Shown here: one piece after another, positions 10,644-54,526 of the stretch | Position numbering within the stretch: the stretch's first letter is position 1 | Layout: every line of letters starts with the position of its first letter | Assembly (NCBI GenBank): GCA_029834535.1 | Contig: JAQMWT010000398.1 | Coordinates: forward strand, 1 to 64,000 | Length of the DNA stretch: 64,000 nt | Source: Chrysophaeum taylorii | Lineage: Eukaryota > Sar > Pelagophyceae > Pelagomonadales > Pelagomonadaceae | Direction of reading: 5' to 3' | Notes under the pieces: generated by a model | What the model was told of the DNA's origin: nothing | Database searches by the model: none | Seen by the model: the letters and a program-made list of their open reading frames with translations, nothing else | Position numbers and translations under genes: made by a program

Positions 10644-11012
10644 TAGCCTACTGCTCCCGCTCGCAATACTTACTTGCTCGTTCTTCTTTCGAAGCTGAAT
10701 TGCTTGCTCTTTACGCTGCTACTGCTGAGCTCTCTTGGTTTCTCAAACTTTTGTGATGACTTTGATTTCCCTTGTCACACCGTCCCAATGTATGTTGATA
10801 ATAGCACCACCGTCACCCAAGTTCGTCTCCAATGTCTCACACGGCGCACCCGCCATATTGACATTCGCTTTTACAGTACCGCCGAATATCATCGCAACCA
10901 CATCATTGATCTCAAACACATACCCCGCCTTCACAATCTTAGCGACATTTTCACCCGCAGTACGGAAGCTCCTTCCTTCCTCCGGCTTCGTGCTCGTTAC
11001 CTCACTTCGTGA
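10640..11012 (+). pseudogene. RNase H end of copia element 2 pol
   Basis: Reads AYCSRSQYLLARSSFEAELL, then MYVDNSTTVTQV, TRRTRHIDIRFY and IPRLHNLSDIFTRS. These are the C-terminal RNase H and IDIR/ADIFTK landmarks of copia pol. The frame starts separately from RT, consistent with decay. Confidence 0.8.
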
Positions 11013-11095
11013 TCTTCGCCCTGATCTCTGTTGTCTCTTTTTCTTGCCACAATGCCTCTGTGACGTCTTCCTTCAAAGCTTCTCCTCTGTGAGCG

Positions 11096-11246
11096 TCTCA
11101 CTTACCCCTTTTTCCTTTTCCTTCTTTTCCAGCACCTGTGTGAAACTAACTAACTAACTTCAGACCTCTCCCGAGCATGGAGACACCTGTGTGAGGACCT
11201 CACTTACCCCTTTTTCCTTTTCCTTCTTTTCCAGCACCTGTGTGAG
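11096..11246. repeat. tandem pyrimidine-rich repeat before the 3' LTR of element 2
   Basis: A roughly 50-bp block (TCACTTACCCCTTTTTCC... to CACCTGTGTGA) occurs at 11096-11146 and again at 11198-11246, separated by about 50 bp. A purine-rich polypurine tract would be expected here on the + strand; a pyrimidine-rich tract is present instead. Confidence 0.7.
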
Positions 11247-11336
11247 GAAGCTATGACACTTACCCCTACACCACGTATCCAGTATCCTTACGTCATTCTC
11301 TTATCGCTAGTCTAACGCCTCATACCATTCGTAACA
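11241..11336 (+). repeat. 3' LTR of copia element 2
   Basis: Matches 6473-6568 with two substitutions and ends CGTAACA. The duplicated target AGGAA follows. Confidence 0.88.
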
Positions 11337-11341
11337 AGGAA

Positions 11342-11439
11342 CATACCTTTTCATTCCCCGAATTAGATACTTCCAGACGTTCATGATGAGACGGGATGGT
11401 TTCCCAGGTGACTTACCACTGCTTGCTAAATGCTCTGCA
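11342..11439 (+). repeat. element 1 LTR, right part (interrupted copy)
   Basis: Matches 12565-12662 and ends TGCTCTGCA, completing the LTR begun at 6256. Removing 6473-11341 restores an LTR of about 315 bp. Confidence 0.8.
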
Positions 11440-11452
11440 CCCACATCAGAAC

Positions 11453-12183
11453 CTACTCTGGAAATGTCTTCGCCATCGACACACCCTGCTCCTTCTGTCT
11501 CGCCTGATGATGTCGATGCCTTCCATCAAAAAATCGAGCTACTCCAGGAAACTCTTCGCCTACATATTCGCAAGGTCAACACCCTCAGTGCTGAGAATCT
11601 ATCTCTGCGCACAGATCTGCAGGCTGCCGTTGCTTCAATTACCTCCCTGGAGAACCGGCTCTTTCCTCCTACGCCAATGCACACGTGTTGCTCGTAACAC
11701 TGTTCAAGATCACAGAGCTGCTGTCTCGCTTAACTCTTACAGCTCATGACCAATATGCCGCCAACCATTCCTCCCCGGACGATCACCTCCATCATCTGCG
11801 TGATAATTTGCTCTCGTGTATTCAAATTATTCCCTTCGCATGTGAATCGGAAGACTCTTCTATCTTCTCGGATCCGTTCGCTGAGTCCAACTTCTTGGAA
11901 AACCAACTGGACACCCTAAAACTTGACTCACTAGTGCCATCCCTAATGAATGCTTTACTTGCACTCACGTTTCGTATGGTACCACACCATTCTGCTATTG
12001 GTGTTCACACCCTGACAGCAGAAGCTGACAAAGAAGAATATACCGATACTCTCGAACCAGTAACGATGCCCACCACCTCAGATAGCCTCAACACACTGTC
12101 TGTTGTACCTGTGTTTCGTAATGCCCTGTTTAAAAGCGTCAAGTCGACTCTCAACTCCACCAAGTCCAAGTCCAAGTCCTAAG
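11453..12183 (+). repeat. direct repeat A of the copia 3' region (right copy)
   Basis: Homologous to 5486-6120. It carries two open segments (11383-11697 and 11685-12182), the first predicted as coiled coil from heptads around KIELLQETLRLHI and LSAENLSLRTDLQ. It lies directly between two LTRs, where gag and pol should be. Confidence 0.78.
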
Positions 12184-12345
12184 CCCTAAGACGTGAGACG
12201 TCTTAAGCGCAAGGTGCGACTGAAGAGTATCTCTTGAGAAAGATGATGATGAAGACAGGAAAAAAAAAGGAGAAGGAAAGGAGCGTACAGTCTTGATGGT
12301 CGCAGAGGTCACATAAGAAGCATCAAGAGCATAGCAGGGTGGGGG

Positions 12346-12662
12346 TGCAGAGAAATCTGCTGCCTCTTACCCTTATCCGTCCGTTGAGAACGTGATCTCT
12401 TCCTTACCCTTCTTCTTCCTTTTCTACACAATCAAATAGTCCTCTGATTTGTGCCTACGCTCATCATCATGGTCTAGCACGTCCCGAGGTATGTAGCACT
12501 ATACACTTTACCTTTCTTGTGTAGTTCTAGATGCTGCCTGTCGTGTTCTGAGGATGTAGGGGACATACCTTTTCATTCCCCTAATTAAATACTTCCAGAC
12601 GTTCATGATGAGACGGGATGGTTTTCCAGGTGACTTGCCACACTGCTTGCTAATGCTCTGCA
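12346..12662 (+). repeat. element 1 LTR, uninterrupted copy
   Basis: 317 bp, TGCAGAG...CTCTGCA, preceded by a GGTGGGGG purine run. It preserves the pre-insertion site of element 2 at about 12560 (GTAGGGGACATACC). Confidence 0.82.
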
Positions 12663-20300: not shown

Positions 20301-21223
20301 ATCGCCGCCTGGCGCGCGTCGTCTCGGTGCGCGAGAGAAACCTCCGCGAGGTCGTCGCCAGACGCGCAAGCCGCGTCGACGCGACCATCACTTCTTGGAC
20401 GCGAGCGGTCGACGACGCTTTCATCCGCATCGTTTACGAAAAGGGATGGTAGTTGAGCCGCCGCAGTCATCCTCCCAGGCGCAGATTTTGTGGCCTTGCG
20501 GCGCTTCGAAGCAGGCCGTTTCGTTGTGCCCCCCGCTTTCTTATTGCCCGCGGCTGGGCTCGTCGGCGTCACGGAGCGCGACGGGAGCCCTTTGCGGGTA
20601 GACGAGCCGTTCTTTGCCGTTTCGACGCCGCCGTTTTCGATCGTCGGGGGTTTTCGCAAAACTTCCGCCGGCGTCGACGCGTCGTCGCCGTCGTCGTCGA
20701 GCGAGTCGCCCCCCCCCTCGGCCGCGGAAGAAGCTTTCGACCCCCCGACGCTCGGAGTGGTCTCTCGCGACGTCACCGAGCTCGGTGCCGCAGACACGCG
20801 CGGCACGGCAGCCTCAGACGTCGTCTGGACATCTCGGATTGACGGCTCTTTTTGCGGACCGGAGCGACTCGTGATAGCGGCGACCTCCTCGTCGTCGTCG
20901 TCTTCCTCCACCACCGAGTTCAAGACATCATCGAGCTCCTGGTCCATCAGGCGGTCCGCGTCTGTCTTGCGACGCTTGCGCGGTTTGGCGGTCGTCGTCT
21001 TGCGTTTCCGGGGGGGCTTGCGCTGCTTGAGCTGGGCTTGCATAGCGGTGAGCTCATCCTTGAGTCGCTCGACCTCCGCCTTGAGGTCATTTTTCCTCGC
21101 TTCTTCGAGCTCGAGCTTGAGACCTTTGTTCGCTGCTTCGAGCTCGGCGTTGTCGCGCCGCAGCGTGCGAATGAGATCGGCGGCCCGCGCCAGCGCGTCG
21201 CGGACGCGGGCATCGACGGACAT
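17315..21223 (-). CDS. coiled-coil / acidic-repeat protein fused to a GT25-type glycosyltransferase domain
   Basis: A single 1302-aa open frame. Residues about 1-70 form a coiled coil (NAELEAANKGLKLELEEA). Residues 70-95 are strongly basic (RKPPRKRKTTTAKPRKRRK), like a nuclear signal. Residues about 370-690 are acidic 48-aa repeats: SAKRAGATSDLLPSLLEESD, an Asp run, then RRASNEDNDDV. A helical region (about 740-1050) is unrecognised. The C-terminal ~250 aa match glycosyltransferase family 25: RVINLAGATRRRKAM at the start, SHVEQWRRARGDGEP, the acidic VIIFEDDVVLAPGF that fits the metal/sugar-nucleotide site, and YFWGLHAYALFPKGAAKLL. GT25 enzymes transfer galactose or glucose to collagen hydroxylysine or LPS. 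No signal peptide is visible, odd for an ER/Golgi enzyme. Two genes merged by a missed boundary remain possible. Confidence 0.72.
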   Translation of the reverse strand: MSVDARVRDALARAADLIRTLRRDNAELEAANKGLKLELEEARKNDLKAEVERLKDELTAMQAQLKQRKPPRKRKTTTAKPRKRRKTDADRLMDQELDDVLNSVVEEDDDDEEVAAITSRSGPQKEPSIRDVQTTSEAAVPRVSAAPSSVTSRETTPSVGGSKASSAAEGGGDSLDDDGDDASTPAEVLRKPPTIENGGVETAKNGSSTRKGLPSRSVTPTSPAAGNKKAGGTTKRPASKRRKATKSAPGRMTAAAQLPSLFVNDADESVVDRSRPRSDGRVDAACASGDDLAEVSLAHRDDARQAAIERKVTRSSRADVDATRKPAVAPRASDLPSLLEDDDDSRRVGVGSAGEALLEVPSSRGEDEEKRPANVSNDVAVVTRESAKRSEATSDLLSSLLEESDDEDNDDNDDVVVVAGESAKRAGATSDLLPSLLEESDDDDDEDKRPERHDDEKRPERRASNEDNDDVILVAGESAKRAGATSDLLPSLLEESDDDDDDDEKRPERRASNEDNDDVILVAGESAKRAGATSDLLPSLLEESDDDDDDDDKRPERRASNEDNDDVVVVAGESAKRAGATTDLLPSLLEESDDDDDDDDKRPEMRASNDDDDDNVVVVTAESSKRTEARSNLLPSLLEESDDDDDDYERRASNDDDDDDNVLVTAESAKRTEATSDLLQESDDDDDDKLSEKDQALETRGRMERRADGDDEVMSDEVARKPGAPREIRSDKEYMQELCERLHTEYIGTGERSTAPRKGRKLEKEAALAHARRALRAASDREELAAALSCVNYGMTVHFPPFRVRKQSQHRAKIQAATANEKWSARHVVVEVLAWACGAGDSKAAAAAAADLFVSLASPTRLGRDTLFVAVRDVAHASLSWATWTGSLSEAFKRQLDDALAWHEAARPPEETMGDVFAALRDRLGLESEALGDGDVSAATKAIIRRSASWAREALKPDAPPLTTGIAAWLLVREDPLDAAAARARETLRAKLGPPEVARALLAAHSGEANDGACGAVVDWARRLPVAERAALPRRLLRRIADVCRRPRARVINLAGATRRRKAMARLALVHGLDLERCRAADAETNIPEKTVAATWSRGACETNARFDQSSRGLEYLDRAELPALSATERACAASHVEQWRRARGDGEPVIIFEDDVVLAPGFSQQARAALMDAPPDADLVLFGYFFPGAEIDDLRRQPAAVLRRFLRPSYFWGLHAYALFPKGAAKLLRHLPVDSPADVFVARLVHDRTLAAYAVRTKLAKQRTQTTSSIDHSNRDDPGVTFDPSKRITYDPLDDLASHVW
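19150..20070 (-). repeat. 144-bp coding tandem repeats (48-aa acidic repeat)
   Basis: The repeat anchor TTGGATGCGCGCCTCTC recurs at about 19542, 19686 and 19830, a 144-bp period. Further, more diverged copies lie on both sides. Each copy contains a GTC run encoding poly-Asp. The strong identity of the central copies suggests recent unequal exchange. Confidence 0.85.
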
Positions 21224-21289
21224 CGCCGGAGTAGGGTTAAGTTAGGAGACAACTACACCTTTTCCCACACACACAGAGGAGACGCAAAC

Positions 21290-26423: not shown

Positions 26424-27923
26424 CTATGCTGTGTCTTTGAGAAAGGCGGAGAAGAGGTCCTCGAAGTCGAGACGCGATATTTTGCCGTCTTGGTCGAGGT
26501 CGGCGACCTGGATGAGCTTTTTTACCTCGGCATCAGAGGGATACTCGCCGAGGCGGTTCAAGACCTCCTTGAGCTTCCAGGGAGAAATAATGCCGCTTTG
26601 CTCGATGTCGGCGGCGTTGAAGGCGGCGTAGACGTCGTCCCTGGTGACGATGTCCTTGCCGATGAGCATGCGGGCGCGGTGGATCCAGGCCCCGCCGGCT
26701 TCGAAGGAGTCGTCGCCACCAATTATCTCGGCAAATGAGACCCATCGCTTTTCCTCGGCCGACTTTCCGGCAGCCATGGCCATTATGAGGGCGATGAGGC
26801 CGTCCTGTCCCGAGACGGGGACGGGCGTGTCCAGGACGAGGGAGTTGACGAAGGCGCGGGTCTCGGCGGCGTAGGCCTCGCGGTAGCGCGACATGAAAAA
26901 GTCGAACGGATGGTCGGCGTGGCCGACGTGCTGCGCCGTGTAGAGGTTCGCGGTCGTCGGGAACATGTTGTCTGTGGAGAGCATGCCGAGGGAGCCGAGG
27001 ACTTCGGCGCGTTGGTCGTAGCCGTATGGTGCCTGGCGGCAGACGTCGATAATCGCCTCGCGGCCGTTCGAGAAGCGGCAGATGATGTTGGCCGTGTCGT
27101 ACCGCTCGGGACCGTCCAAGTCGACGATATCGTCCGAGACGCACGTCATGCCCGAGGCGAGAATTTCGGTGGGCTCCGAGGCCATCAAGAACCGGGCCAT
27201 GTCCAGGTCGTGGATGGCCATGTCCTTGAAGATGCCGCCCCCGCCCTTCACGTAAGAGGCCGGCGGCGGCGCCGGATCGCGCGAGCAGAGCTTGACGACG
27301 ATCGGGTCTCCGATCTCGCCTCGGAGGATGCCCGCCTTGACGCGGCTGAAGCTCGGGTCGAAACGTCGCTGGAGGGCGGTCATCAATTTGAGGGATTCGC
27401 GTTCCATCGCGCGTATAGCTCCGATCGTTTCGCTCAACGACGTGGCTATCGGCTTCTCGCAGAAGACGTGCTTACCTGCCGCCGCGCACTTGTGGATCTG
27501 GTCCGCGTGGTACGAGCTCGGCGAGCAGATCCAGACGGCCTCGACATCGGGGTGGTTTATTACCTTCTCCGCGTCCGAGGTCCATTCCGGAACGCCAAAC
27601 AGTTTTGCCGCCGACTCTGCTTTCTCTACGGTCGGGTTGCTCACGATGACCACCCGGGCTCCCGACGCCCGCGACAGAGTGTCGAGGTGGACCAGCCCGA
27701 TGCGACCGCACCCGACCACCCCGATCCCCACCACCGTCGACGGCGCATCGTTTCCACCCCGAAATTCACCCGGTTGAGGGGGCGTGCACCCGTACACGCT
27801 GTGGCACGGGTCGTACCGGGACGCCGCCAGGGGCTCCTCTCTTCTCGCCGGAACGCCCTGCGACCGCCACACAAATGGCTCGACGATACAGGGCCGAACC
27901 GCCAACAAAATAGCCGTCAACAT
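26424..27923 (-). CDS. Gfo/Idh/MocA oxidoreductase (inositol 2-dehydrogenase-like) fused to EF-hands
   Basis: 499 aa from the ATG at 27923; further upstream the frame runs through an AAAT/AAAC microsatellite and is not used. Residues about 1-60 look like a targeting leader or linker. The Rossmann domain starts VVGIGVVGCGRIGLVH (GxGxxG for NAD(P)), followed by VWICSPSSYHADQ and the FCEKPIA motif with the catalytic-site Lys. The C-terminal catalytic fold includes GGIFKDMAIHDLDMARF, where Asp and His are the usual active-site residues. This layout matches myo-inositol 2-dehydrogenases. Residues about 425-495 form an EF-hand pair: a degenerate loop DIEQSGIISPWK and a canonical loop DLDQDGKISRLDFE. 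A dehydrogenase carrying a calmodulin-like tail is unusual and suggests Ca2+ control, which is inference. Confidence 0.88.
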   Translation of the reverse strand: MLTAILLAVRPCIVEPFVWRSQGVPARREEPLAASRYDPCHSVYGCTPPQPGEFRGGNDAPSTVVGIGVVGCGRIGLVHLDTLSRASGARVVIVSNPTVEKAESAAKLFGVPEWTSDAEKVINHPDVEAVWICSPSSYHADQIHKCAAAGKHVFCEKPIATSLSETIGAIRAMERESLKLMTALQRRFDPSFSRVKAGILRGEIGDPIVVKLCSRDPAPPPASYVKGGGGIFKDMAIHDLDMARFLMASEPTEILASGMTCVSDDIVDLDGPERYDTANIICRFSNGREAIIDVCRQAPYGYDQRAEVLGSLGMLSTDNMFPTTANLYTAQHVGHADHPFDFFMSRYREAYAAETRAFVNSLVLDTPVPVSGQDGLIALIMAMAAGKSAEEKRWVSFAEIIGGDDSFEAGGAWIHRARMLIGKDIVTRDDVYAAFNAADIEQSGIISPWKLKEVLNRLGEYPSDAEVKKLIQVADLDQDGKISRLDFEDLFSAFLKDTA

Positions 27924-27963
27924 ATTCCTGCTGCTTCTTCCTTGAACTGGGGTGGGGACCCCA

Positions 27964-28036
27964 TAAATAAACAAATAAATGAGTAAATAAATAAATGAGT
28001 AAATAAATAAACAAACAAACAAACAAACAAACAAAT
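27964..28036. repeat. AAAT/AAAC/AGTA tetranucleotide microsatellite
   Basis: About 70 bp of AAATAAAC, AAATGAGT and AAAC units directly upstream of the dehydrogenase start. It creates a spurious hydrophobic N-terminal extension when translated on the minus strand. Confidence 0.9.
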
Positions 28037-28119
28037 AAGCCCGAAACCTGCCCTATGACTGACAAACACCACGTACGACCTCCGGGCCTCGGGGCCCTTG
28101 GTCCTCTCTTCGCCTGCCC

Positions 28120-28265
28120 CACGACTCGGCGATGACCCCGACTAGGCCCCGCATACTTATCTCCGCCCGTCACGCACATCCCTCCTACCCCACAGACCCA
28201 CCCTCATCCTTCATGCCCCCCACACACCCCCCCGTCTTAGCAGTCGACATTTAAAGACAGACACC
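28120..28265 (+). repeat. dispersed short repeat, uninterrupted copy
   Basis: CGATGACCCCGACTAGG to GTCGACATTTAAAGAC. It aligns with 38815-38932 joined to 41732-41742 and so preserves the empty site of the Helitron array (AGCAGTCGACATTT at about 28243-28256). Confidence 0.78.
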
Positions 28266-28549
28266 AAGGAGTTATCAATATACCCCTTGATGACACTGAT
28301 ATAGTGGACGTCGTTTATCCTCAAGTTGTGAGGGCCAGGCACGGAAGTTGTTTGTGGTTGTGTGGCGAGAGAACGGCCTTCCTCTTCCAGTGACTAAGGG
28401 CACGGACGCGAGCGGCGAGCCTAGATTCGAAGGTGCGCCAGGTAGGCATAATTTCCTGTTATGCCACAGCCGTCGTCTTGCCGACGACGACCCACGCCCT
28501 TGGAGGATGTGAATTTTAGGAGGATGTGAATTATTATAACTCCCTATTA
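28266..28549. other. intergenic, no gene seen
   Basis: Short direct repeats only (GGAGGATGTGAATT at about 28501 and 28518). No open frame with recognisable domains. Confidence 0.5.
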
Positions 28550-29585
28550 TCCTAACTACTAATCGACAGATGTTTGTCTGTCTGTTTGTTTGTCTGTCTG
28601 TCTGTTTGTCCCTCGATTTAGGGTAAGGATCAGGTAAGCGCGAGAGTAAGGATCAGGTAGGCAGGCGCGAGAGCCAGACAGTGGTCCTCCAAGCCGTCTA
28701 CGGCGACCTCGCAGACTATTTCCACGAGCCGCGGCGGCTCTTTCAGCGCGCCATTCTCACGCCCCGTCGAAACGATGTTGTCGATGCTGACAACGCGCGC
28801 ATGACCGCGGCCTTTTTTTCCCGGAGACGAGGCGTCGGAGTTCTTTTCGGCTGACTAGGCCGGGTCGGAAGACGACGCCTCGCTCTTTACAGTAGAGTTT
28901 TCAACTCCCTGAAAACCAACGGCATGCTGACTTTGAGCGCGAGGTTAAAGTCTTCGCAACCTCGACCCGTCGCACGGCCACTGCAACGGTACCAGATACA
29001 TGATCGATCGTGTCGTTGTCACCGAGGCTCCTCCAACCTGTATCCCGTAAGGCCCGCCGACGCCAAGCGATCAACAAGAGCCAGGGCCAGACGCCCCGCG
29101 AGGTCGGCGTCCTCTTGCCCAAGCCCGTCTTCTGTCACGTCCAGCTCTACGTGGCTCTCTGTCGATCGGCAACCCCGAGGATTTGCTCTTCTGGGTCGAC
29201 GACTCCACCCTACCCCACACGTGCTGCGCAATACCGATAAGCCCCCTCCCGGCGTCTACACGCGCACGGTAGGTGAACTTACTGGGACCAGGTGAACTTA
29301 CTGGGGTTAGAGATTGGGACTAGGTGAATTGAGTGACCAGGTGAACTAACTGGGACCAGGTGAACATACTGGGGCTTTTAGAGTAAAGGGTTTTTAGAGT
29401 AAACTCAAAGGTTGGCGGCGCGTGCGGATCAAAGCAGCTTAGATTGGCGGAGGCGAGAGCGACGAGCTCAAAGGAGTTGGTGTGAGCTAGGTGAACTTAC
29501 TGACCAGGTGAACTTATATGAAACTTACTGGGACCAGGTGAACTTACTGGGGTTAGAGATTGGTGAACTTACTGGCCTGCACTTG
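28550..29585 (+). mobile_element. Helitron fragment H1 (3' half of the helicase, decayed)
   Basis: Begins TCCTAACTACTAATCG, passes through a TGTC/TGTT microsatellite, then encodes in shifting frames the C-terminal part of a PIF1-like Helitron helicase: ADYF...RAILTPRRNDVVDADNA, INKSQGQTPREVGVL, PVFCHVQLYVAL and a terminal VYTRT. Reported Helitron helicases have AILT...ND.V..IN, TINKSQGQT and HGQLYVALSR here. The 3' end carries AGGTGAACTTACTGGGACC minisatellite units and stops at CCTGCACTTG. The flanks are A on the left and T on the right, fitting the A/T target. No Rep domain is present, so it is non-autonomous. Confidence 0.78.
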
Positions 29586-38802: not shown

Positions 38803-38816
38803 AAACAAACCCTCGC
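38803..38816. repeat. 14-bp flanking direct repeat (left)
   Basis: AAACAAACCCTCGC, identical to 41743-41756. The pair flanks the short dispersed repeat together with the Helitron array inside it. This length suits a target-site duplication made by a LINE-type endonuclease. Confidence 0.72.
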
Positions 38817-38932
38817 GATGACCCCGACTAGGTCCCGCGAAATTATCTCCGCCCGTCAGGCACATCCCTCATACCCCACAAACCCACCCACATCCTTCAT
38901 GCTGCCCACACACAACCCCCTCTTAGCAGTCT

Positions 38933-39785
38933 TCCTAACTACTAATCGACAGATGTTTGTCTGTCTGTTTGTCTGTTTGTCTGTTTGTCCCTCGATTTAG
39001 GGTAAGGATCATGTAGGCGCGAGAGTAAGCATCAGGTAGGCGCGAGAGCCAGAAAGTGATCCTCCAAGCCGTCTACGGCGACCTCGCAGACTATTTCCAC
39101 GACCCGCGGCGGCTCTTTCAGCGCGCCATTCTCACGCCCCGTCGAAACGATGTTGTCGATGCTGACAACGCGCGCATGACCGCGGCCTTTTTTTCCCGGA
39201 GACGAGGCGTCGGAGTTCTTTTCGGCTGACTAGGCTGGGTCGGAAGACGACGCCTCGCTCTTTACAGTAGAGTTTTCAACTCCCTGACAACCAACGGCAT
39301 GCTGACTTTGATCGCGAGCTTAATGTCTTCGCAACCTCGACCCGTCGCACGGCCACTGCAACGGTACCAGATACATGATCGATCGTGTCGTTGTCACCGA
39401 GGCTCCTCCAACCTGTATCCCTTAAGGCCCGCCGACGCCAAACGATCAAAGAGCCAGGGCCAGACGCCCCGCGAGGTCGGCGTCCTCTTCCCAAGCCCGT
39501 CTTCTGCCACCGTAGTGACCAGGTGAACTTACTGGGACCAAGTGAACTTACTGGGGTTTTTAGAGTGAACGCAAAGGCTAGCGGCGTGTACGGATCAAAG
39601 CAGCTTAGATTGGCGGAGGTGAGAGCGACGAGCTCGAAGGAGAGTGGGGTGAGTGGGTGTGAGCACGAGTGGGCTTATGCCGAACTTACTGGGGTAAGAG
39701 ATTGGGACTAGGTGAACTTACTGGGACCAGGTGAACTTACTGGGGTTAGAGATTGGGACTAGGTGAACTTACTGGCCTGCACTTG
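38933..39785 (+). mobile_element. Helitron fragment H2 (array unit 1)
   Basis: Same order as H1: TCCTAACTACTAATC start, TGTC/TGTT microsatellite, decayed helicase, AGGTGAACTTACTGG minisatellite and CCTGCACTTG end. A deletion removes sequence after PKPVFCH, so the QLYVAL motif is lost. 853 bp. Confidence 0.8.
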
Positions 39786-39806
39786 TCCTAACTACTAATC
39801 GACAGA

Positions 39807-39849
<43 letters not shown>

Positions 39850-40730
39850 TTGTTTGTCCCTCGATTTAGGGTAAGGATCAGGTAGGCGCGAGAGTAAGGA
39901 TCAGGTAGGCGCGAGAGCCAGACAGTGATCCTCCAAGCCGTCTACGGCGACCTCGCAGACTATTTCCACGACCCGCGGCGGCTCTTTCAGCGCGCCATTC
40001 TCACGCCCCGTCGAAACGATGTTGTCGATGCTGACAACGCGCGCATGACCGCGGCCTTTTTTCCCGAAGACGAGGCGTCGGAGTTCTTTTCGACCGACTA
40101 GGTTGGGTCGGAAGCCGACGCCTCGCTCTTTACAGTCGAGTTTTCAACTCCCTGACAACGGCATGCTGACTTTGATCGCGAGCTTAAAGTCTTCGCAACC
40201 TCGACCCGTCGCACGGCCACTGCAACGGTACCAGATACATGATCGATCGTGTGGTGTCACCGAGGCTCCTCCAACCTGTATCCCTTAAGGCCCGCCGACG
40301 CCAAACGATCAACAAGAGCCAGGGCCAGACGCCCCGCGAGGTCGGCGTCCTCTCGCCCAAGCCCGTCTTCTGCCACGTCCAGCTCTACGTGGCTCTCTGT
40401 CGATCGGCAACCCCGAGGATATCCTCTTCTGAGTCGACGACTCCACCCTACCCACACGTGCTGCGCAATACCGATAAGCCCCCTCCCGGCGTCTACACGC
40501 GCACGGTAGGTGAACTTACTGGGACCAGGTGAACTTAGGGAATTGGGACTGGTGGTTTAGACCACTGGTGAACTTTGGGTGAACCAGGTGAACTCATTTA
40601 GAACAAGGTGAGCGACGGATCAAAGCAGCTTAGATTGGCAGTGAGACGCGAAAGGAGAGTGGGGTGAGAACGAGTGGGCCAGGTGAACTTACTGGGGTTA
40701 GAGATGAACTTACTTACTGGCCTGCACTTG
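39786..40730 (+). mobile_element. Helitron fragment H3 (array unit 2)
   Basis: Starts directly at the last base of H2 with no host DNA between. It encodes the best preserved first motif, ILTPRRNDVVDADNARM followed by AAFFPEDEASEFFSTD, then in another frame TINKSQGQTPREVGVL and VFCHVQLYVALCRSA. 945 bp. Confidence 0.82.
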
Positions 40731-41731
40731 TCTTAACTACGACAGATGTTTGTCTGTCTGTTTGTCTGTTTGTTTGTTTGTTTGTCCCTCGATTTAGGGT
40801 AAGGATCAGGTAGGCGCGAGAGTAAGGATCAGGTAGGCGCGAGAGCCAGACAGTGATCCTCCAAGCCGTCTACGGCGACCTCGCAGACTATTTCCACGAC
40901 CCGCGGCGGCTCTTTCAGCGCGCCATTCTCACGCCCCGTCGAAACGATGTTGTCGATGCTGACAACGCGCGCATGACCGCGGCCTTTTTTTCCCGGAGAC
41001 GAGGCGTCGGAGTTCTTTTCGGCTGACTAGGCTGGGTCGGAAGACGACGCCTCGCTCTTTACAGTAGAGTTTTCAACTCCCTGACAACCAACGGCATGCT
41101 GACTTTGATCGCGAGTTTAAAGTCTTCGCAACCTCGACCCGTCGCACGGCCACTGCAACGGCACCGGATACATGATCGATCGTGTCGTTGTCACCGAGGC
41201 TCCTCCAACCTGTATCCCGTAAGGCCCGCCTACGCCAAGCGATCAACAAGAGCCAGGGCCAGACGCCCCGCGAGGTCGGCGTCCTCTTTCCCAAGCCCGT
41301 CTTCTGCCACGTCCAGCTCTACGTGGCTCTCTGTCGATCGGCATCCCCGAGGATATACTCATCTGGGTCGACGACTCCACCCTACCCCACACGTGCTGCG
41401 CAATACCGATAAGCCCCCTCCCGGCGTCTACACGCGCACTGTAGGTGAACTTAGTGGGACCAGGTGAACTTACTGGAACCAGGTGAACTTACTGAGGTTA
41501 GAGATTGGGACTAGAAGAACTTAGTGACCAGGTGAACTTACTGAGACCAAGTGTGAACTTACTGGGGCTTTTAGAGTAAACTCAAAGCTTAGCGGCGTGT
41601 GCGGATCAAAGCAGCTTTGATTGGCGGGGGTGAGAGCGACGAGCTTGCAGGAGAGTGGGGTGAGTGTGGGTTTACGCCGAACTTACTGGGGTTAGAGATT
41701 GGGACTAGGTGAACTTACTGGCCTGCACTTG
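40731..41731 (+). mobile_element. Helitron fragment H4 (array unit 3)
   Basis: Starts TCTTAACTACGACAG directly after H3 and ends CCTGCACTTG, after which the outer repeat resumes. Helicase motifs INKSQGQTPREVGVL and CHVQLYVALCRSA are present. 1001 bp. Confidence 0.82.
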
Positions 41732-44316: not shown

Positions 44317-44323
44317 CTACAAA
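44317..44323. repeat. 7-bp target-site duplication of the DNA transposon (left)
   Basis: CTACAAA, identical to 48983-48989. Confidence 0.88.
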
Positions 44324-44337
44324 TAGGGTCGGATAAG
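44324..44337 (+). repeat. left terminal inverted repeat
   Basis: TAGGGTCGGATAAG, exact reverse complement of 48969-48982. The repeat does not extend further inward. Confidence 0.9.
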
Positions 44338-44462
44338 AAAGCTCAAAACTAGGCCCTAGCCTACATTTCGAACACCAAACGAGAAACCCTCATTCAAAAG
44401 TGGATTGTCTCAGGCTATGTTTCAAACATAGCCTGCAAAATCACAAAATCGGCGTTCCGCCC

Positions 44463-47400
44463 ATGGAATCGGCCGAAACGAGCAAAGAGTCGGCCCCGGG
44501 TCCTTCTGTAACCCCTGTGGACCCTTCGGTCCCGGCTGAGTTGACGAAAGTGTCGAAAAAACCCGCTGCCAAACGTCAACGGCGAAAAAACCTCTTGAGG
44601 GGAGAGTGCGTGTGCTGCGTAGCGAGGCTCGACGCCGACGAGACGGCCAGGGGCCAGCCGCTCGACCTGGAGCGACTCCTGAATATCGAGGGCGAGCTGC
44701 CCGACAAGTTCTACGTGTGCTCGAAAATGTGCCGGGACGACTTCACCCCGAGCAAGCTACACACGACGAAGGGCGCGAAGGCCGTTCTCGCCCGGATCTC
44801 CGCGTCGCTAACTAGGACTCTCAAGACAACCATCCGCAGCGGGGACGAGGTCCTCATCGAGCACGACTTCTCGGCGGGGCACAACATCCAGGGCGGCAAC
44901 GGCGTTGTCCTGGGCCTAATCTACAACAACACTGTGTGTCGGGTCGAGTCATACGACGTGAAAACGATTCAGCAGGGAGAGATCCGCGTCCCGTTCTCCC
45001 ACGTCAAGGCCAAGCCCGACAAGGAGAACGACACCCCCCCGATTCGGCGACTACCACCCGGACGGCCAGCGCGTCCGACGCTTGGATCGAGTGGGTCATC
45101 GGTTATCTCCACACTGTCGTCGTCGTCGGACTCGAATGTGCGGATCTCGGAGCTCGAGAAGGAGGTGTCGAAACTCCGGAGCACGGTCGACAAGCTCACG
45201 GCGGCCAAGACGGCTCAGCACTCTCTTTCTGTCACCGCCGAACGCGAGACGAAAGAAGCCCACGCCGACGCCTTCGCCGCGGAAATGGCGGCCGCCAAGG
45301 CAGACGCGGCGCGTCTCGAGGCCAAGTGGAAGTACGAGGACGAGGTCCGGGATGCCGCACGTCGGGAGGCACGGCTCCAGGTCCGCATCGAACGCCACCA
45401 GGCCTCCAATGAGAAGCAGCGCGACCGCGATGCCGCGAGGCTGCAGCGAGCCATCGACGAGCTCAACGCGACCAAGGCCCAGTCGAACGAGGCGGCGAGA
45501 CAGGCTGCGGCGGCGGCCGAGTTTCGGGAGAGGAACCGACTGAAGAAATCGGACCCTCGGGCCATGCGACAACTCAAGAACAATTACGCCGCCCTCAATC
45601 AGGAAGCGAAGCAAATGGAGATAAAGCTCGCGGCTGCCGAGGACCGCGTCCAGGCCCGGGAGGAGGAGATCGAGCGGCTGCGGGAGCGGGTCGCGGTCCT
45701 CGAGAAGCAGAACGCCGAAGTGTGGGTACCGCGGAAGCCGTCCGGCAAGGGATCCGGCAAGGGCACTCCGTGGGACTCGAAGCTCAGGGTGCTGTGTATG
45801 AAACTGCTCGCCTCGTGGGTTGCGCCTGCGGAAATCCCCGAGGTCCTGGTCTCGGTCGTCGAGGCGGTCGTTGGCCCGGATCGAGTGCGCGACATGGAGC
45901 TCCCGTCCGCACGCTTCATTCGCGACCTGCGCTCCGAGATGGGTGTCCTTCACGAGGCCGCCGTCGCCCTCGCCGTGGGATACGGTGACGTCGTCGACGC
46001 GGCGACGGACGCGTCGCCGCTCGACGGCAAGGAGATCGCGACTACCCAACTTCGCGTCACACGCGGCGGCGTGACGGAGAACTGGACGCTGGGCGCGAGC
46101 GAGATCTCCGACCAGAGCGCGCCTGGCGAGGCCAAGGCGATCAACGATCGGTTTGGTGACCTGAATCGAGCGCTCCAGCTCGTTAATCAAGTTTACCAGG
46201 AGCTCTACGGAGCCGACGCTGCTGCGGAGGCGCTCCCGGCCGCCGGCAGCGCCGGCGTGCAGAATCTCGCCGGCCGGGCCATCGTTACCGACAACGCCTC
46301 CGCCGCCATCGCATCGGTCCGCGAGCTCCAGGAGCATGTCCTCGCGGCGGTGCAGAAGGAGATCGGGGAAGAGCTGTGGAATTTGATGACGCAAGACGAG
46401 CGCGACGCGAAGACTCGTGTCTTTCACGGGAACTGCCAGCGACATCTCGGTACGTCGTGCCGTCCCACCAGCAATTTGTTGAGCAGGCAACACATGGCTC
46501 GACGGCGGCGCCGCCGAGGAGGCCAAGATGCTCGACACGCTGCTGAAGGATAGCATCGAGAGCTCGGAGGCGAAGCACCTGCGCCTCACCGGCGAGTTGA
46601 ACAAGGTCATTCATGCCTTGTCCAAGTGTATCGGCGAGGGCGTGGATCGCTATGGGAAGGGCTTCGGGACCCCTCTCCGGGCATTCCTCGAGGAGAAGCA
46701 CCCGTCGGAGCTCTACCTCACGCTCGGCCGCACGGACAAGGGGACGCGGCAGGACGCGTGCACCAACGCGGCCTGGGTCATCTTCCACAACCTCCCGTTT
46801 CTCGTCGAGTTCCTCGAGAACGCGAGCTACGCGCCGCAGAACATCCTCAGGAACAACCTCTTCTCGACCTTGTCCTCGCAGGAGGTCGCCGGAGCCATTC
46901 GAGCCCGAGCGATCATCGACGACAAGCTCACGGTGCCTTTCCGATTTTTCGCCGCATCGGACGCCCTCGAGGGTTGGTCGGTTCTCGACATGGCGGGCGT
47001 TCTCGAGCGAGTGCATGCCTTCTTCCAAGTCTGCCAGGATAATCCACAACTCGTTGCGACCGCCGGTTACGAGGCCTTCGATACTGAGATCGCCACCTAC
47101 GCCCAGTTCCTCGAGACGCGGGCCGGGTCGGCGAAGCTGTCCGTCGACGGCCAGTCCACGATCCGCGACGTCGCGGCCGTTCGCTCCGCCTGACACCAAT
47201 GATCCAGAGGCCAAGACCATGCTCGACGCGCTCCGGGCCTGGGGCCGCGGCATGCGCCGCACGTTCGAGGGGGGGCAGTCTATGCGCTACGTCGGCGACG
47301 GCGACCTCGCGGCGGTCAACCAGACGTCGGAGCTCCGGAGGGCCTTCGACGGCGTGCGGCGGAACTCGAACGAGGTCGAAGGCGAGTTTGGCGTATTGAA

Positions 47401-48604
47401 GTATTACAACGCCTCCTACGTCAACATGAGCGTCGTGAACTGCGTCGGGGTCGTCGCGTGCCAACGGGACCACATGTTCGACCGGGCCGCCACGAGTTTT
47501 ACGACCAAGCGCCGGCGACGCGTCGCCGACGAGGTCGCTGGTCGAACGACGACGAAGGCTCGAATGCGCGATCGAGTTGGTGGAGGACGTCTCGCCACGC
47601 TCGGCGACGACTTTCGAGGAGTGTTGATGGAGGCGGCTCGTCGTGGTCGGCAGAACCACAAGGAGCAGGCTGCCGCGCGCGCGGAGACGGCGAAGGAGCA
47701 CCATCGCCGTCGCGCCGCCGCGTTCGTCGAGAAGGCCCTCGAGCGCCAGGTGAACGACTACGCCAAGGCCCAGGAGGCCATGAAAGTCAAGCCTGTCGTC
47801 GACGAGCAGGCCCTCGTCGGGAGGACCCTGCTCTCGACGGTCAAGAAGCGACTTGATGCGGCACTTAAGCAGATCTCGAGCGACGCTGCGCGGTCGAAGG
47901 TCCTCAAGGAGAACATCGACAGGTACGTCGTCGGCATGGGCATGGGCGACCTCAAACCCAAGTCCTACACCTCGGGCAAAGACCCGACGATCGGCTCGGC
48001 CGGTTCCAAGGCCAACATCGAATTCCTCACCGCGCACCTCGAGTACGTCTACGAGCAGATCAAGACCAACTCCCGCGAGTTGGTCGCCGAGGCGGTAGTC
48101 CCGGGCGAGCGCCGACGGCAGCTGCCAGTGCTCGGGACCGCGACGGCCCAGCGTCTCGAACTCGACGCGAGGCGGCACTTGAGCGTTGACGAGCTCAAGG
48201 CCAAGGTTGAGGAGTGCCGCGCCTTTCGCCATCCGAGGAAGCGGACGCGGACAACGAGTGGCCGCTCGAAGCTACCGACGATTGACGTGGTGTTGGTCGG
48301 GTCACGCGTCGAGGTTCTCTGGGAGTTGTCGGGGCACCCGGGCTGCTACTGGATGCCCGGCACCATCGAGGCGGTATCCGACGAGAACTCCAAGGACGGT
48401 CGCAAGAAACTCGGGCTGGGTTGGATCTTCGTTTCCTATGACGACGGTTTCAGCGGGTGGCTCCTCGCGAACCGCCCCACCTTCTTCAACGGCTCCAAAC
48501 CGGCTTCCTGGCGCTTCGTGTCCGAGGACAACGAATACGACGACGACGACGACGAGGAGGAGGAGGAGGACGCGATGGACGTCGACGACGACGACTACGC
48601 ATAG
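44463..48604 (+). CDS. transposase of the DNA transposon, three exons, apparently intact
   Basis: Exons 44463-46449, 46487-47169 and 47210-48604 join in frame across introns of 37 nt (GTACGT...GAGCAG) and 40 nt (GTCGCG...CCAGAG), giving 1354 aa. The first junction restores CQRHLGNTWLDGG; the second intron is less certain and a frameshift is the alternative. N-terminus: CVCC ... VCSKMCRDDF, a probable zinc-binding DNA-recognition module, then an SH3/Tudor-like strand set (SGDEVLIEHDF). A long coiled coil follows (about residues 220-430). Catalytic candidates: TDASPLDGKE (D516 or D521), IVTDNAS (D610), HGNCQRHL, and NSNEVEGEFGVL (E945-E949), matching a DDE layout. C-terminus: a Tudor-like VGSRVEVLWEL...GWIFVSYDDGFSGWL and a poly-Asp/Glu tail. 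The closest pattern I recall is a large uncharacterised DDE family in cnidarian and other animal genomes. Confidence 0.8.
46450..46486 (+). other. 37-nt intron in the transposase gene
   Basis: GTACGTCGTGCC donor side and TTGTTGAGCAG acceptor. Splicing shifts from the first to the second open frame at CAT CTC G/GC AAC. Confidence 0.72.
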
Positions 48605-48968
48605 CTGCGTTCGCGGGCCCCGACGCCGGTCTCCCGAGGACGCCCGGAAAGACGAGGACACTAGAACTGGCCCCAGCGAACAAAAGGCGCCGTCTAAACG
48701 CCCACACGACCCTCATTGGGCCTACGGACATTCCCGACGCGCCGGTTGTTGTATTTGGAGCCGATGGCGTCGTGCAGAGTAGAGCCACCTAGGCTCCCGC
48801 CTCCACCGAGGCGCCAAAATACCTCACTCCCAAGTAGATTCGCCAAATCGGCAGCTACGGACTTCGTTCCAAGATAAAATCGGCACCATTTTGGGTCAAC
48901 TTGGCGACGGACAAAAAAGCCCGCCAATCCTTGGGGATTTTCGGCCCCGGCGGGGGACCCACGAGTTC

Positions 48969-48982
48969 CTTATCCGACCCTA
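48969..48982 (-). repeat. right terminal inverted repeat
   Basis: CTTATCCGACCCTA, exact reverse complement of the left end. The duplicated target CTACAAA follows at 48983-48989. Confidence 0.9.
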
Positions 48983-49326
48983 CTACAAAGCATATTCGAC
49001 CATAAACCAACCTTGAGTCTGCGGGTTTTTTGAGCGGGAAATCGGTCGATTTGGACCGGAGTTTCGCTCGGGCCTCGGAGGGGGTCCTCTTTGGCTGCTG
49101 TCCGTGAAAGTACAAGTGACTCCGGGCGAGCCCGTATGACTTATATACACTATGCCTGAAGTTGGCATCAGCATTACGAGTCCAATCTCGACACCCTACG
49201 TGCCGCGAGCGGTCGGAAGCGACTCAAGTCGGACGGCAGAGCGGCTCCGATACGCGAGGGGACTGTTCCTAGTCCCCTCGCCACGCTTTTCATGAGCCGA
49301 CTTCATCACCACAGCCACGCATATAG

Positions 49327-50769: not shown

Positions 50770-53091
50770 TCAGCTCTGCTGACGACGACGACTCTGAGGA
50801 GACACCGAAGAGCTGCTGCGCAGGACCCTGTTGTTGTTGTCGAGGTCGGGGTGGCCGATGTCGCCGTGCCGGTAGGGGCCGATGGTGAGCGAAAGGACAA
50901 TGGCGACGTAGGAGGCGTCGGGTCGGGAGACGTGGGCGTCGCCGTAGGGCACGATAGTGGTTGCGAATGTCTTGAAGTGCGGTCGGAGCTTGGTGTTGTG
51001 CCGGTCGCAGAGGTCGGCAGGGAAGGTCTTGTGGTGCGAGCCGTTGATGGCCCAGACCCGAAGGTCCCGGGCGGCGGTCTCGTCGAGATTTTTGAGAAGC
51101 TCAGGGAGCAGGGGCGTGGGGCCGTTGAGAGCGACGAGCGCCCCGACCGGGCACCGGCAGGCGACGTGCGTCGCGACGACAGCGCCTTGGTCGAAGCCGC
51201 CGATTGCCAGATGGGACGGTTCCACGAGGCTCATCTCGTGGTTGACGATCGCACTCTTGACCCAGTTCACAGACTCGTCGATTTGTGCGGTCAGGAGCCT
51301 GCGTTTGCGGGAACCCGTGTCTTTCCCTTGGAGCATTTCGCGCCAGTCGTCTTGGTCGAGGTCGAACCACTGACCGTCGGGCGACAACCGGCAGCGCGGA
51401 GGTCTCGCCACGAGGATCCTGAGCGAGGGAAAGTCGCGCCGCACCTCTGTCTGGAGGAGGTCGGCGACTTCGTCGAGGCTCAGGGCATCGTCGGGCCCCA
51501 CAAGCCACACCAGACTTGCTTTGTGCGGTTGCGACGGGTCGCGCGCGACGCATCGCGTCGCGGCGACGCGCCGCGCTGCCGACACTTTGCGCGCAGCGAC
51601 GTTCAAAGAGGCGCGCTTCTCGAGGCGCCGCGTGGCGCGCTGCGCCGTCTTGCGTCTACGCGTGCCGTCGATGTCTTTCACGGCGCGACAAAGTCGATGC
51701 CGCATCTGCTGGCATAACGCGGCCGTCTTGTCACCGATCCGGCGGTTCTGGCGACGCAACGCCAACACGGCCTCGACGTCGACCAAGGCTCCTTTGTAGT
51801 CCTCGAGCGCCTCGAGCGCCTCGGCGCGCCGCAGGAGGGCCTTGACATCATCCGGCCGTGCCGCAAGCACGACGTCGCAATCACCCACGACTCCGTCGTT
51901 GTTTCCGAGCTGCTTGTACGCGGCCGCGCGATTGCCGCGGACAGCAAGCGACTCGTCGCCCGCAGCGAGACAACGAGAATAGTGCTCCACGGCGGCCTCA
52001 AACTTTCCATTCCTATACGCCTCGTCGCCAACCCGTTTGTCCGGGAGCTGCTTTCCCCTATCTGGTAACTCCACCGTCTCGACGTCCTCGCGCTTGACGT
52101 CGTCGTCGTCGTCGTCGTCAAATTGGAGGAGCTCGCGCCCAAGATAGGCCACGGCAAAAACCCCGCCGTCGCGCATACCCGCTGCCCAGGCCGTTACGTC
52201 GTCCTCGACGACTTGCTCGCGCCGGAGGACTTCGTCTTTGTCGCCGACGCCCGGTTTGCCGAGGACGACGAGGTCCGGCTCGAGATTCGGGTTTGCGTCG
52301 CATAGCGCAGCAATGACGGCGGCCACGGTGTCCCCGGCTCGCACCGTGAATGGCTCAAGGTGTGCGGGCTTGAGAGTTATTTTTTGGTCCCAGGCGATGG
52401 CGTCGTAGCGCCACGACAGCTGCTGCCGGTCAGTCCGGTATCCGAGGTCAAACGCTGTCGAGTCCTTTGGAGCGTCGACGCCCCCCACCGCCAAGATCGT
52501 CGCGTTGACAGCCGGCACCGTGGCCTGCAAGAGTTCGAGGAGCTGCGTCGTTGTTGAGACGGTCCTTGCGCTGACTTGGAAGTCGCCCCCGTCGAGCTCG
52601 ATCGCGTAGTCGGGCGGCACGTCGCGGTCGAGGAGCTGCCCGTGCTCGGGCGTACGGGTCGCGACGAAGCCGCCGTGCGTCGCCACCCAACCGCCCTCGC
52701 ACACGCCGCGAACCCTCTCGCCATACCGCACCACGCCCAGGGTGCGGCTCGCGCGATGTGGCTGTTCGCGGATTGCCACTGGTTTTCGATAAATGACTTG
52801 CCACGATGGCGCCACGAGGTGTCGCGCATCGTCGGCACAAGTCGCTACGGGTGACGCAACCTCGCGCCACGGCGCACTGCGCCCAGTGCGACGCACGCTG
52901 TCCGCCGCAACGCATCCACCGAGAAAGCCGCAGGCTTCGACAATTTCCCCGCAGACTTCACCCCAAAACAACGTGCCCGAGCTCCACGTGGACACGATCC
53001 GACCCCGTGGCTCGAGTCGCACGGCCACGGCACTCACCACCTCCCACTCTTCCGCCTCGGGCTCCACTTTTCTGGAAACGGCCCAAGACAT
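50770..53091 (-). CDS. SH3-like / TPR protein with C-terminal acyl-protein-thioesterase-like domain lacking the nucleophile
   Basis: 773 aa. Residues about 15-60 and 95-155 look like two bacterial-type SH3 folds; the second reads PVAIREQPHRASRTLGVVRY then GGWVATHGGFVATR. Residues about 345-450 form three TPR units: GDEAYRNGKFEAAVEHYSRC, AVRGNRAAAYKQLGNNDGVV and ALLRRAEALEALEDYKGALVD. The C-terminal domain (about 530-740) matches acyl-protein thioesterase/carboxylesterase hydrolases, with HLAIGGFDQGAVVATHVAC at the nucleophile elbow and YGDAHVSRPDA at the His site. The expected GFSQG is GFDQG, so catalytic Ser is Asp (D634). It is probably a non-catalytic binding module. The start is 100 bp from the ATG of a divergent gene that also has an SH3-like N-terminus. 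Confidence 0.78.
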   Translation of the reverse strand: MSWAVSRKVEPEAEEWEVVSAVAVRLEPRGRIVSTWSSGTLFWGEVCGEIVEACGFLGGCVAADSVRRTGRSAPWREVASPVATCADDARHLVAPSWQVIYRKPVAIREQPHRASRTLGVVRYGERVRGVCEGGWVATHGGFVATRTPEHGQLLDRDVPPDYAIELDGGDFQVSARTVSTTTQLLELLQATVPAVNATILAVGGVDAPKDSTAFDLGYRTDRQQLSWRYDAIAWDQKITLKPAHLEPFTVRAGDTVAAVIAALCDANPNLEPDLVVLGKPGVGDKDEVLRREQVVEDDVTAWAAGMRDGGVFAVAYLGRELLQFDDDDDDDVKREDVETVELPDRGKQLPDKRVGDEAYRNGKFEAAVEHYSRCLAAGDESLAVRGNRAAAYKQLGNNDGVVGDCDVVLAARPDDVKALLRRAEALEALEDYKGALVDVEAVLALRRQNRRIGDKTAALCQQMRHRLCRAVKDIDGTRRRKTAQRATRRLEKRASLNVAARKVSAARRVAATRCVARDPSQPHKASLVWLVGPDDALSLDEVADLLQTEVRRDFPSLRILVARPPRCRLSPDGQWFDLDQDDWREMLQGKDTGSRKRRLLTAQIDESVNWVKSAIVNHEMSLVEPSHLAIGGFDQGAVVATHVACRCPVGALVALNGPTPLLPELLKNLDETAARDLRVWAINGSHHKTFPADLCDRHNTKLRPHFKTFATTIVPYGDAHVSRPDASYVAIVLSLTIGPYRHGDIGHPDLDNNNRVLRSSSSVSPQSRRRQQS

Positions 53092-53191
53092 CTTCTTCGG
53101 GCTGCCGCGTTCGTTCGAAAAAGTTCGTTGCTTTGTGCTGATGACGTCAATCGGTATCTTTAGTAAACGTTAGGCGGCCGTCGCCGAACAA

Positions 53192-54526
53192 ATGGCAAAT
53201 GGACGCATCCGGACGGCGGTCGTGGGAGCGCGGAACGGTGCTCTCATGCGCGAGGGCCCTGGCCTCGACACACGTATGGTGTGCTCGCTCGCTTGCGGCA
53301 CAAACGTGATGTGCGCGGACCACCGTGATCTACGCCGGGGATCCCGCACAGTTGAGCGCGTGAGGCTCGTCGCCCCAATGGAGGGCTGGTGCTCGGCCAA
53401 GACCCTGCGGTTTTTGGACTGCCAAGAAATCAGGCTCGCGCCGGGCTTTAGCGTCTCCTCGACACACCTCGCGCCGGCAACACCCGACTACGCCGCGACG
53501 CTCGACAAGCTCAGGCACGACCTCGCGCGACGCGAGGAGGCCTTGTTAGACCTCATTGCCGCCGGACAACAGAGGCGCAAGAAAAAAAAGCGTTGCCAAC
53601 GGCACCACCGACACCTGTCGTCACGAGGCGGCGACGCGACGACAACCACCAAGCTTTCGGTGTACTCGTCGTCGTCGTCGTCGTCGTCGCCGCCCAAATC
53701 CAGTTCAGCCTACGCCTCGTCGTCGCCACCATCGCCATTCGATCTTACGCCCGCCTCCTCTTCGAGAAAAGTCATACCCAGATCCAAATCAGCCTACGCG
53801 TCGTCGTCGCCAAAGCCACGGTCCGCGCGTGACATCGCGTACTCGAAAAAAGTCGTCACGAGCGAACCCCCCAGACGCCACGTCATCGTCCTCGCCGACA
53901 CGAACTTTGAAGCGGTAACGCGGGCGGTGCACGGTGACGGGGTCGATTGGCTCGTTTTGTTCGTCGCGCCATGGTGCACCTACTGCAAACGGCTCGAGCC
54001 CATCGCGCAGACCATATGCGCCGATCTCGCCGACACCCGCGTCGCTCAGGTCGACGTCACGCAATCGCACGGGCTCGCCTATCGCTTTGGGGTGCGCGCA
54101 CTGCCGACGATCCTCTTGTTCCACCACAGCTCCATGTTCGAGTTCACCGGCGCTCGCACGACCCCAAATCTCATGGCTTTCGCGACCGATGGCTTCCGAC
54201 ACCACCCTGCCTGCGCGGTGCCGCCACCCGACAACGACGAACCCGAGCCCCTCGAACAACAAAAAGTTTTCCTGCGGACCCATCTGGACCACCTCCAGTG
54301 CGGGAGCCAGCATTTCGGTTTAAACCCCCACTCCGCCACGCCCGCCAACGACAGCACAAACTTGGTACTCGCGTCCCTCAAGCTGCAAAAACTCGCCCGC
54401 GGCTTTCTCGCGCGCTGCAAAATTTCTTACCGTTCGGAGGCTGCACCCCCACACGAGAAACTCTCCAAAGAGGACAAAGTGGTCTTCGATCCACCTGACC
54501 TCATTCAGGTGGCTCAGGACATTTAG
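53192..54526 (+). CDS. SH3-like / thioredoxin-domain / IQ-motif protein
   Basis: 444 aa. Residues about 8-80 resemble an SH3-like domain (ALMREGPGLDTRMVCSLACG, then MEGWCSAKTLRFLD). A Ser-rich, low-complexity linker with repeated SAYASSSP units and a GTC-encoded Ser run follows. The thioredoxin domain is at about 228-345: VDWLVLFVAPWCTYCKRLEP places C262 and C265 in a WCTYC redox motif, and GVRALPTILLFHH supplies the cis-proline. PDI usually has CGHC and thioredoxin CGPC, so CTYC suggests a distinct redox potential. The C-terminal part has an IQ-like calmodulin-binding segment, LQKLARGFLARCK. There is no signal peptide, so it is probably cytosolic. Co-regulation with the divergent TPR protein is likely from the 100-bp gap. 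Confidence 0.78.
   Translation: MANGRIRTAVVGARNGALMREGPGLDTRMVCSLACGTNVMCADHRDLRRGSRTVERVRLVAPMEGWCSAKTLRFLDCQEIRLAPGFSVSSTHLAPATPDYAATLDKLRHDLARREEALLDLIAAGQQRRKKKKRCQRHHRHLSSRGGDATTTTKLSVYSSSSSSSSPPKSSSAYASSSPPSPFDLTPASSSRKVIPRSKSAYASSSPKPRSARDIAYSKKVVTSEPPRRHVIVLADTNFEAVTRAVHGDGVDWLVLFVAPWCTYCKRLEPIAQTICADLADTRVAQVDVTQSHGLAYRFGVRALPTILLFHHSSMFEFTGARTTPNLMAFATDGFRHHPACAVPPPDNDEPEPLEQQKVFLRTHLDHLQCGSQHFGLNPHSATPANDSTNLVLASLKLQKLARGFLARCKISYRSEAAPPHEKLSKEDKVVFDPPDLIQVAQDI

Follow-up and report, generated by a model that had tools for sequence, protein, structure and literature searches.

A CxxH motif marks the transposases of the hAT, P, MuDR, Kolobok and Dada superfamilies of DNA transposons (PMC3706591), and within hAT, lineages with 5-, 6- and 7-bp target-site duplications have been described (PMC12730594). 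In algae, the hATv group of Repbase comprises 16 elements in three haptophytes, and one hATv element, Shanks from Tisochrysis lutea, is briefly described as having 7-bp duplications, open reading frames of ~793 and 580 amino acids (aa) and, according to that short description, no match in Pfam or HHpred (PMC10138859). Here we analyze a transposon in a 64,000-nt stretch of DNA from the pelagophyte Chrysophaeum taylorii (assembly GCA_029834535.1, contig JAQMWT010000398.1, positions 1 to 64,000; hereafter, the window). The element measures 4,659 bp (~4.66 kb), spans positions 44324-48982 and has its interior filled by a single gene. We consider it rather probable that this feature is a frameshifted, non-autonomous copy of a young cut-and-paste family, whose full-frame copies have two exons and code for ~1,372 aa; this transposase is most likely a highly divergent hAT enzyme of the hATv kind. 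The parts of the element to which we refer throughout are the following (handles beginning with L denote copies of the element; C189, C203 and C466 denote relatives).

44317..44323, no strand: left 7-bp target-site duplication, CTACAAA
44324..44337, + strand: left terminal inverted repeat, TAGGGTCGGATAAG
44463..46449, + strand: exon 1 of the transposase gene, 662 codons plus one base
44607..44732, + strand: Cys-rich N-terminal segment, C49..C90, candidate zinc-binding, without a Pfam match
45129..45716, + strand: coiled-coil-like helical region, residues ~223-418, from weak matches
46008..46010, + strand: candidate first catalytic aspartate (D1), D516, motif TDASPLDG, kept in the C189 relative
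46290..46292, + strand: candidate second catalytic aspartate (D2), D610, motif TDNA, kept in the C189 and C203 families
46434..46445, + strand: CxxH motif after D2, C658..H661, kept in two other families
46450..46486, + strand: intron 1, 37 nt, GTACGT..GAGCAG
46487..47193, + strand: exon 2, in frame until a premature TGA at 47191-47193
47181..47182, no strand: site at which 14 nt present in 27 of 30 copies are deleted
47194..48604, + strand: remainder of exon 2, frameshifted in the window copy, natural stop at 48602-48604
47378..47380, + strand: candidate catalytic glutamate, E965, within E-[GS]-x-F-G and past the frameshift, kept in three families
48266..48541, + strand: C-terminal Tudor/Agenet-like (SH3-type) segment, conserved in two families
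48969..48982, - strand: right terminal inverted repeat
48983..48989, no strand: right 7-bp target-site duplication, CTACAAA

Ends, copies and target sites of the family

The original prediction, made from the window sequence alone, described perfect 14-bp terminal inverted repeats (TIRs) and a perfect 7-bp duplication, and both stand at the positions listed above. The element ends are TAGGG, and the TIRs extend to 17 bp when one mismatch is allowed. Across the window, the 14-bp repeat occurs within two mismatches at just its two end sites, against an expectation of 0.16, and a text search of the literature returned no occurrence of the TIR string. The host genome (70.8 Mb in 697 contigs), whose 84 matches to chlorophyll a/b-binding proteins show a photosynthetic eukaryote, contains 373+377 TIR matches with up to one mismatch, compared with 3+4 for a reversed control pattern.

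A DNA search of this genome for further copies, as the original prediction had proposed, recovered at least 31 long ones. Since 31 of 403 candidates were scored, copy counts are lower bounds. Identity was 99-100% in 27 of the 31 rows, namely, the window's own copy and 26 others at 99%; the remainder are a nearly whole-length copy at 98%, another copy at 96%, and a pair at 98% that each lack ~490-620 bp of one end. Four additional rows correspond to a relative at C466 with 77-82% identity. We aligned 30 long copies from their cut loci (L021-L050, where L021 is the window copy), and divergence among 28 of them, with L049 and L050 dropped, had a mean of 0.53%, a minimum of 0.02% and a maximum of 0.99%. 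Within this young family pN/pS is 0.96, as neutral decay of copies would give. Two pattern searches add to the picture: the junction of intron 1 has 28+23 matches in the host genome, and the interior of a miniature inverted-repeat transposable element (MITE) of 259 bp has 144+167 (311 in total). The likeness of this MITE to the long element is limited to the termini, with 17-18 bp per end.

Allowing for at most one mismatch, 7-bp duplications are present around 21 of the 30 long copies and around five of ten MITE-size pairs in the fetched loci. Among the 25 exact ones, the match continues for one more base three times on the left and eight times on the right, which is about what chance would give, and the duplication length is therefore 7. 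All 26 duplications fit the pattern NYNNNRN, which 23% of flanking 7-mers also fit as background. Two points weigh against this account: nine of the 30 long copies and five of the ten MITE-size pairs show no duplication by the test used, and NYNNNRN was spotted post hoc, once the sites had been viewed. Even for a post hoc pattern, a score of 26 out of 26 over a background of 23% makes chance implausible. In agreement with the original prediction, the family has been recently active, given its near-identical long copies, shared TIRs and duplications.

Two loci deserve separate mention. In L043, a 259-bp MITE is nested at 6161-6419, near the end of the long copy, and has a 7-bp duplication of its own, TTCTTAT. 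Copies L023, L025 and L047 have a common left flank, TCGGACAATTA, and no 7-bp duplication, perhaps owing to recombination or to insertion into a shared repeat.

Gene structure and the frameshift of the window copy

The original prediction read the window copy as complete and apparently intact, with a single gene of three frames that join into 1354 aa without an internal stop once two introns are removed. That the gene fills the element and that the join is open both hold, and the first intron is supported; the second is not. Intron 1 has 37 nt in 30 of 30 copies, all with GT and 29 with GTACGT at the donor. At the same place and phase, the C203 family has 44 nt of different sequence bounded by GT..AG, and the C189 relative, which has no intron here, reads ...NCQSHIGNTFLD... 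uninterrupted. Comparison between families thus supports intron 1 as genuine. The predicted full-frame transposase has two exons, of 662 and 710 codons (~1,372 aa).

The proposed intron 2 (47170-47209) is 14 nt longer in 27 of the 30 aligned copies, with no stop in the frame of exon 2, and the 14-nt deletion is present in just L021, L023 and L025. The whole second exon (709 residues) was matched stop-free in eight other copies. Furthermore, the C189 relative encodes protein across the equivalent of 47170-47209, being 47% identical over 626 residues, and one piece of the C466 relative likewise does so. As a consequence of the deletion, the frame of the window copy ends at codon 898 of ~1372, before E965 and the C-terminal domain. 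As judged by these alignments, therefore, 47170-47209 is coding sequence and the window copy is a defective, frameshifted and predictably non-autonomous element, and not an intact one. This was concealed by the two-intron gene model, which is the methodological lesson of this window. A full frame of 1,372-1,373 aa is found in two of the 30 copies, L028 and L035; the other 28 are without it.

Could the window copy still be functional, with 47170-47209 turned into a real 40-nt intron after the deletion? The stretch has GT..AG ends, its removal restores the frame to 1354 aa, and the deletion is common to L021, L023 and L025 at different places. However, the same stretch is open coding sequence in the other 27 copies, and the protein that it encodes is conserved in the C189 family (RDV..R.RLY.P). 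Splicing would remove ~18 residues of a partly conserved region; moreover, GTCGCG makes a poor donor, and further frame-breaking lesions are present in the other two deletion copies. We therefore regard a functional intron as very improbable, and treat the window copy as frameshifted.

Several lesions are common to copies at separate places, namely, the 14-nt deletion (three of 30 copies), a loss of 2 nt at element position 711 (eight) and one of 8 nt at position 1102 (four), which suggests that broken copies moved in trans. Against this, a duplication is present at just the window copy among the three that have the 14-nt deletion. Some of the 1-2-nt differences between copies sit in homopolymer runs and might reflect assembly errors. 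Six of the 30 copies (L022, L027, L029, L030, L032 and L043) have a premature stop in common, at codon 316, and could thus encode just the N-terminal Cys-rich and coiled-coil part; it is possible that such truncated products act as dominant-negative repressors.

Conserved residues, superfamily and C-terminal segment of the transposase

Candidate catalytic residues were identified by comparison between families, represented by L028, C189 and C203. First, D2, the CxxH motif and E965 are conserved in all three, and D1 in both families where it was read (L028 and C189). Second, C203 has Q in place of E967, leaving E965 as the candidate catalytic glutamate. Third, the spacing between D1 and D2 is 94 residues, and that between D2 and E is 355 residues. 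The C203 protein is 38% identical to that of C189, and between L028 and the C189 family, over 954 codons compared, amino-acid identity is 48% and dN/dS is ~0.34, which indicates past purifying selection as a protein. The C189 copy has an in-frame stop directly after D1. The claim of a DDE-type cut-and-paste transposon thus gains from residues conserved between families. The Cys-rich N-terminus was also confirmed (C49..C90), and its second Cys pair, VCSKxC, recurs in the C189 relative. The predicted coiled coil survives as a coiled-coil-like stretch, since residues 216-419 give weak helix-rich and Rad50-type matches that are far under the cut-offs of those models; the Pfam matches on the first half of the protein are coiled-coil noise.

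Taken together, these residues suggest a transposase that would have an RNase H-type core. Its placement in a superfamily is less direct. As in the hAT elements Hermes and Ac, a CxxH motif follows D2, the D2-E spacing is long, and the second and second-last target positions are pyrimidine and purine, respectively. The D1-D2-E spacing of Hermes is 68 and 324, and TAGGG ends and an E-x-x-F-G context are hAT-like. The pyrimidine/purine rule holds in 26 of 26 target sites, much like the preference of Hermes for nTnnnnAn over 8 bp (PMC10368747). The motif C658xxH661, of the C/DxxH kind found after the second D, is present in the three families, and other superfamilies have it too.

Several results count against a hAT affinity. 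The usual hAT duplication is 8 bp and not 7 bp; no hAT dimerisation or BED model matched, including the dimerisation domain PF05699 in the protein parts; and a scan of the genome for that domain gave 11 places, seven above the cut-off, none of them at the listed copies of the element. No transposase model of Pfam matched any protein part at E<=10, although HMMER filters discard most matches above E ~0.1, and none of the NCBIfam transposase models matched. AlphaFold2 modelling covered two segments of the window, and the single-sequence model of the D1-D2 segment reached a pLDDT of 44, with no Foldseek match at E<=0.001; the Foldseek hits listed for this poor model and for that of the C-terminal segment were taken to carry no meaning. 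Searches not specific to hAT also came back empty. A PDB sequence search found nothing for exon 3 of the original gene model or for a two-sequence alignment (A2). Relatives outside the host were found neither in genome contigs or viral contigs by related-locus search nor in phages by tblastn, where two short peptide seeds per search (six in one) make the absence weak. Hermes, at 612 aa, is also much shorter than the 1,372 aa encoded here. As for the 7-bp duplication, it is not exclusive of hAT, given that lineages with 5, 6 and 7 bp exist; hAT7 of rust fungi is one with 7 bp, albeit its hAT status was established by transposase similarity (PMC12730594), which is not detectable here.

The lack of Pfam and NCBIfam matches, and of the dimerisation domain at the listed loci, would also fit an element outside hAT, whether from another or a new superfamily of the CxxH clan (P, MuDR, Kolobok, Dada-like) or from none of these; the hAT resemblance in ends, target pattern and spacing would then be due to convergence. 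Dada, with 6-7-bp duplications and D/CxxH residues, is also compatible with the 7-bp duplications, but its described families target small RNA genes and, in that source, are without TIRs (PMC3706591). Here, the TIRs are perfect, the 26 varied target sites share just NYNNNRN and the window holds no tRNA or Rfam match, such that Dada is disfavoured. The TAGGG ends and the E-x-x-F-G context also resemble hAT as it is generally known. We hold another superfamily to be a minority reading, distinctly less probable than a divergent hAT.

Protein size and the Cys-rich N-terminus also called for consideration of a KDZ (Kyakuja/Dileera/Zisupton) element, a group whose transposases have Cys-rich zinc-binding parts. 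KDZ transposases may exceed 1300 aa and are found in algae (PMC12477816). Zisupton duplications, however, are of 8 bp (PMC12730594). No part of the protein gave a KDZ-type Pfam match at E<=10. Pfam does include a KDZ model. KDZ membership is accordingly disfavoured and seems highly unlikely, and a divergent hAT-type transposase remains our preferred reading.

The C-terminal segment, which the original prediction called Tudor-like, shows 70% identity between two families across 89 residues and has an SH3-type look. For one family it matched the Agenet model of Pfam with E of 0.068 and 0.11, at 13-14 bits versus a cut-off of 27 bits, and for the second family there was no Pfam match. Single-sequence AlphaFold2 returned six strands at a low-confidence pLDDT of 51, without a Foldseek match at E<=0.001, and five implausible matches (E 0.48-1) came from a PDB sequence search. 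The conserved segment itself is thus upheld, whereas its Tudor-like assignment is weakly supported.

The original prediction proposed that this segment could read histone marks and so tether integration to particular chromatin. In favour of this are its conservation, the two Agenet E-values and the C-terminal Tudor domain of a brown-algal Gypsy element (PMC12477816). Nonetheless, the Agenet score lies under its cut-off, the second family has no match, the structural model is of low confidence, and two tyrosines that might line an aromatic cage are histidines in the second family, all of which makes a histone reader unlikely. The broader proposal of an algal transposase lineage outside every profile-recognisable superfamily, with a Tudor/Agenet-type chromatin reader fused C-terminally to a DDE core, is more doubtful still; if true, chromatin state would steer insertion of the element via the fused reader. 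We know of no earlier case of such a fusion in a DNA transposon, and a literature search found no Tudor- or Agenet-bearing DNA transposon by title among the papers listed, which is weak evidence of absence. The element thereby raises the question of whether DNA transposases can bear a chromatin-reading tail.

Under the hAT-type reading, transposition may proceed as follows. The transposase would bind the 14-17-bp element ends; D516, D610 and E965 of an RNase H-type core, in which D2 and E would be separated by a long and probably helical insertion, would serve to excise the element; and the excised element would be joined to the target at NYNNNRN sites, where the two strands would be cut with a 7-bp stagger. 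The same enzyme could mobilise the broken long copies and the 259-bp MITE family in trans, and the C-terminal SH3/Tudor-like segment may help in chromatin or nucleic acid binding. Because the family is young, at least two copies have a full frame and ~300 MITE matches have the same ends, activity is directly testable in a laboratory assay.

Genomic setting and comparison with described elements

Host genes and other repeats surround the element in the window. The annotated host genes are these:

17318-21241, - strand: GT25-type glycosyltransferase
26427-28052, - strand: Gfo/Idh/MocA oxidoreductase frame with EF hands
50773-53169, - strand: TPR and carboxylesterase
53174-54523, + strand: thioredoxin

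Pieces of Copia-type retrotransposons lie at 862-12641, with RVT_2 at 2279-4798 and 9726-10640; two stretches, 862-1980 and 8016-8999, match a retroviral SH3-like domain. Possible long terminal repeats (LTRs) are a pair of repeats at 6027-6470 and 12090-12561, which lie ~6.07-6.09 kb from each other and share 86-99% identity piece by piece. Repeats of ~900 bp occur in several copies at 28129-29494 and 38815-41671, with identity reaching 98% across 300 nt, accompanied by a 19-bp AGGTGAACTTACTGGGACC-type repeat; the same motif adjoins a transposon copy outside the window, L032.

Two of the closest described systems are algal elements. For the C-terminal segment, the comparison is with Gypsy-10_Ec32 of Ectocarpus, a brown-algal Gypsy element described as the first reported transposable element with a Tudor domain (PMC12477816). 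It is likewise a mobile element with a C-terminal domain of this kind; yet it is an LTR retrotransposon, whereas here the gene encodes a DNA transposase and the domain is Tudor-like.

For the element as a whole, the original prediction could not name the family. By description, hATv emerges as the best candidate among described groups; the likeness is one of description and not of compared sequences, which tempers the assignment. Shanks is larger (~6,768 bp) and has non-identical 26-bp ends (PMC10138859), in contrast with the 4.66 kb and perfect 14-bp ends found here. Both are algal DNA transposons with 7-bp duplications, no Pfam match and many non-autonomous derivatives, and both have two coding parts, of ~793 and 580 aa in Shanks (1,373 together; PMC10138859) and of 662 and 710 in the present family. 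Our literature search led to that one paper, with its short description, and the family analyzed here would supply a molecular anatomy for this hAT-like group.

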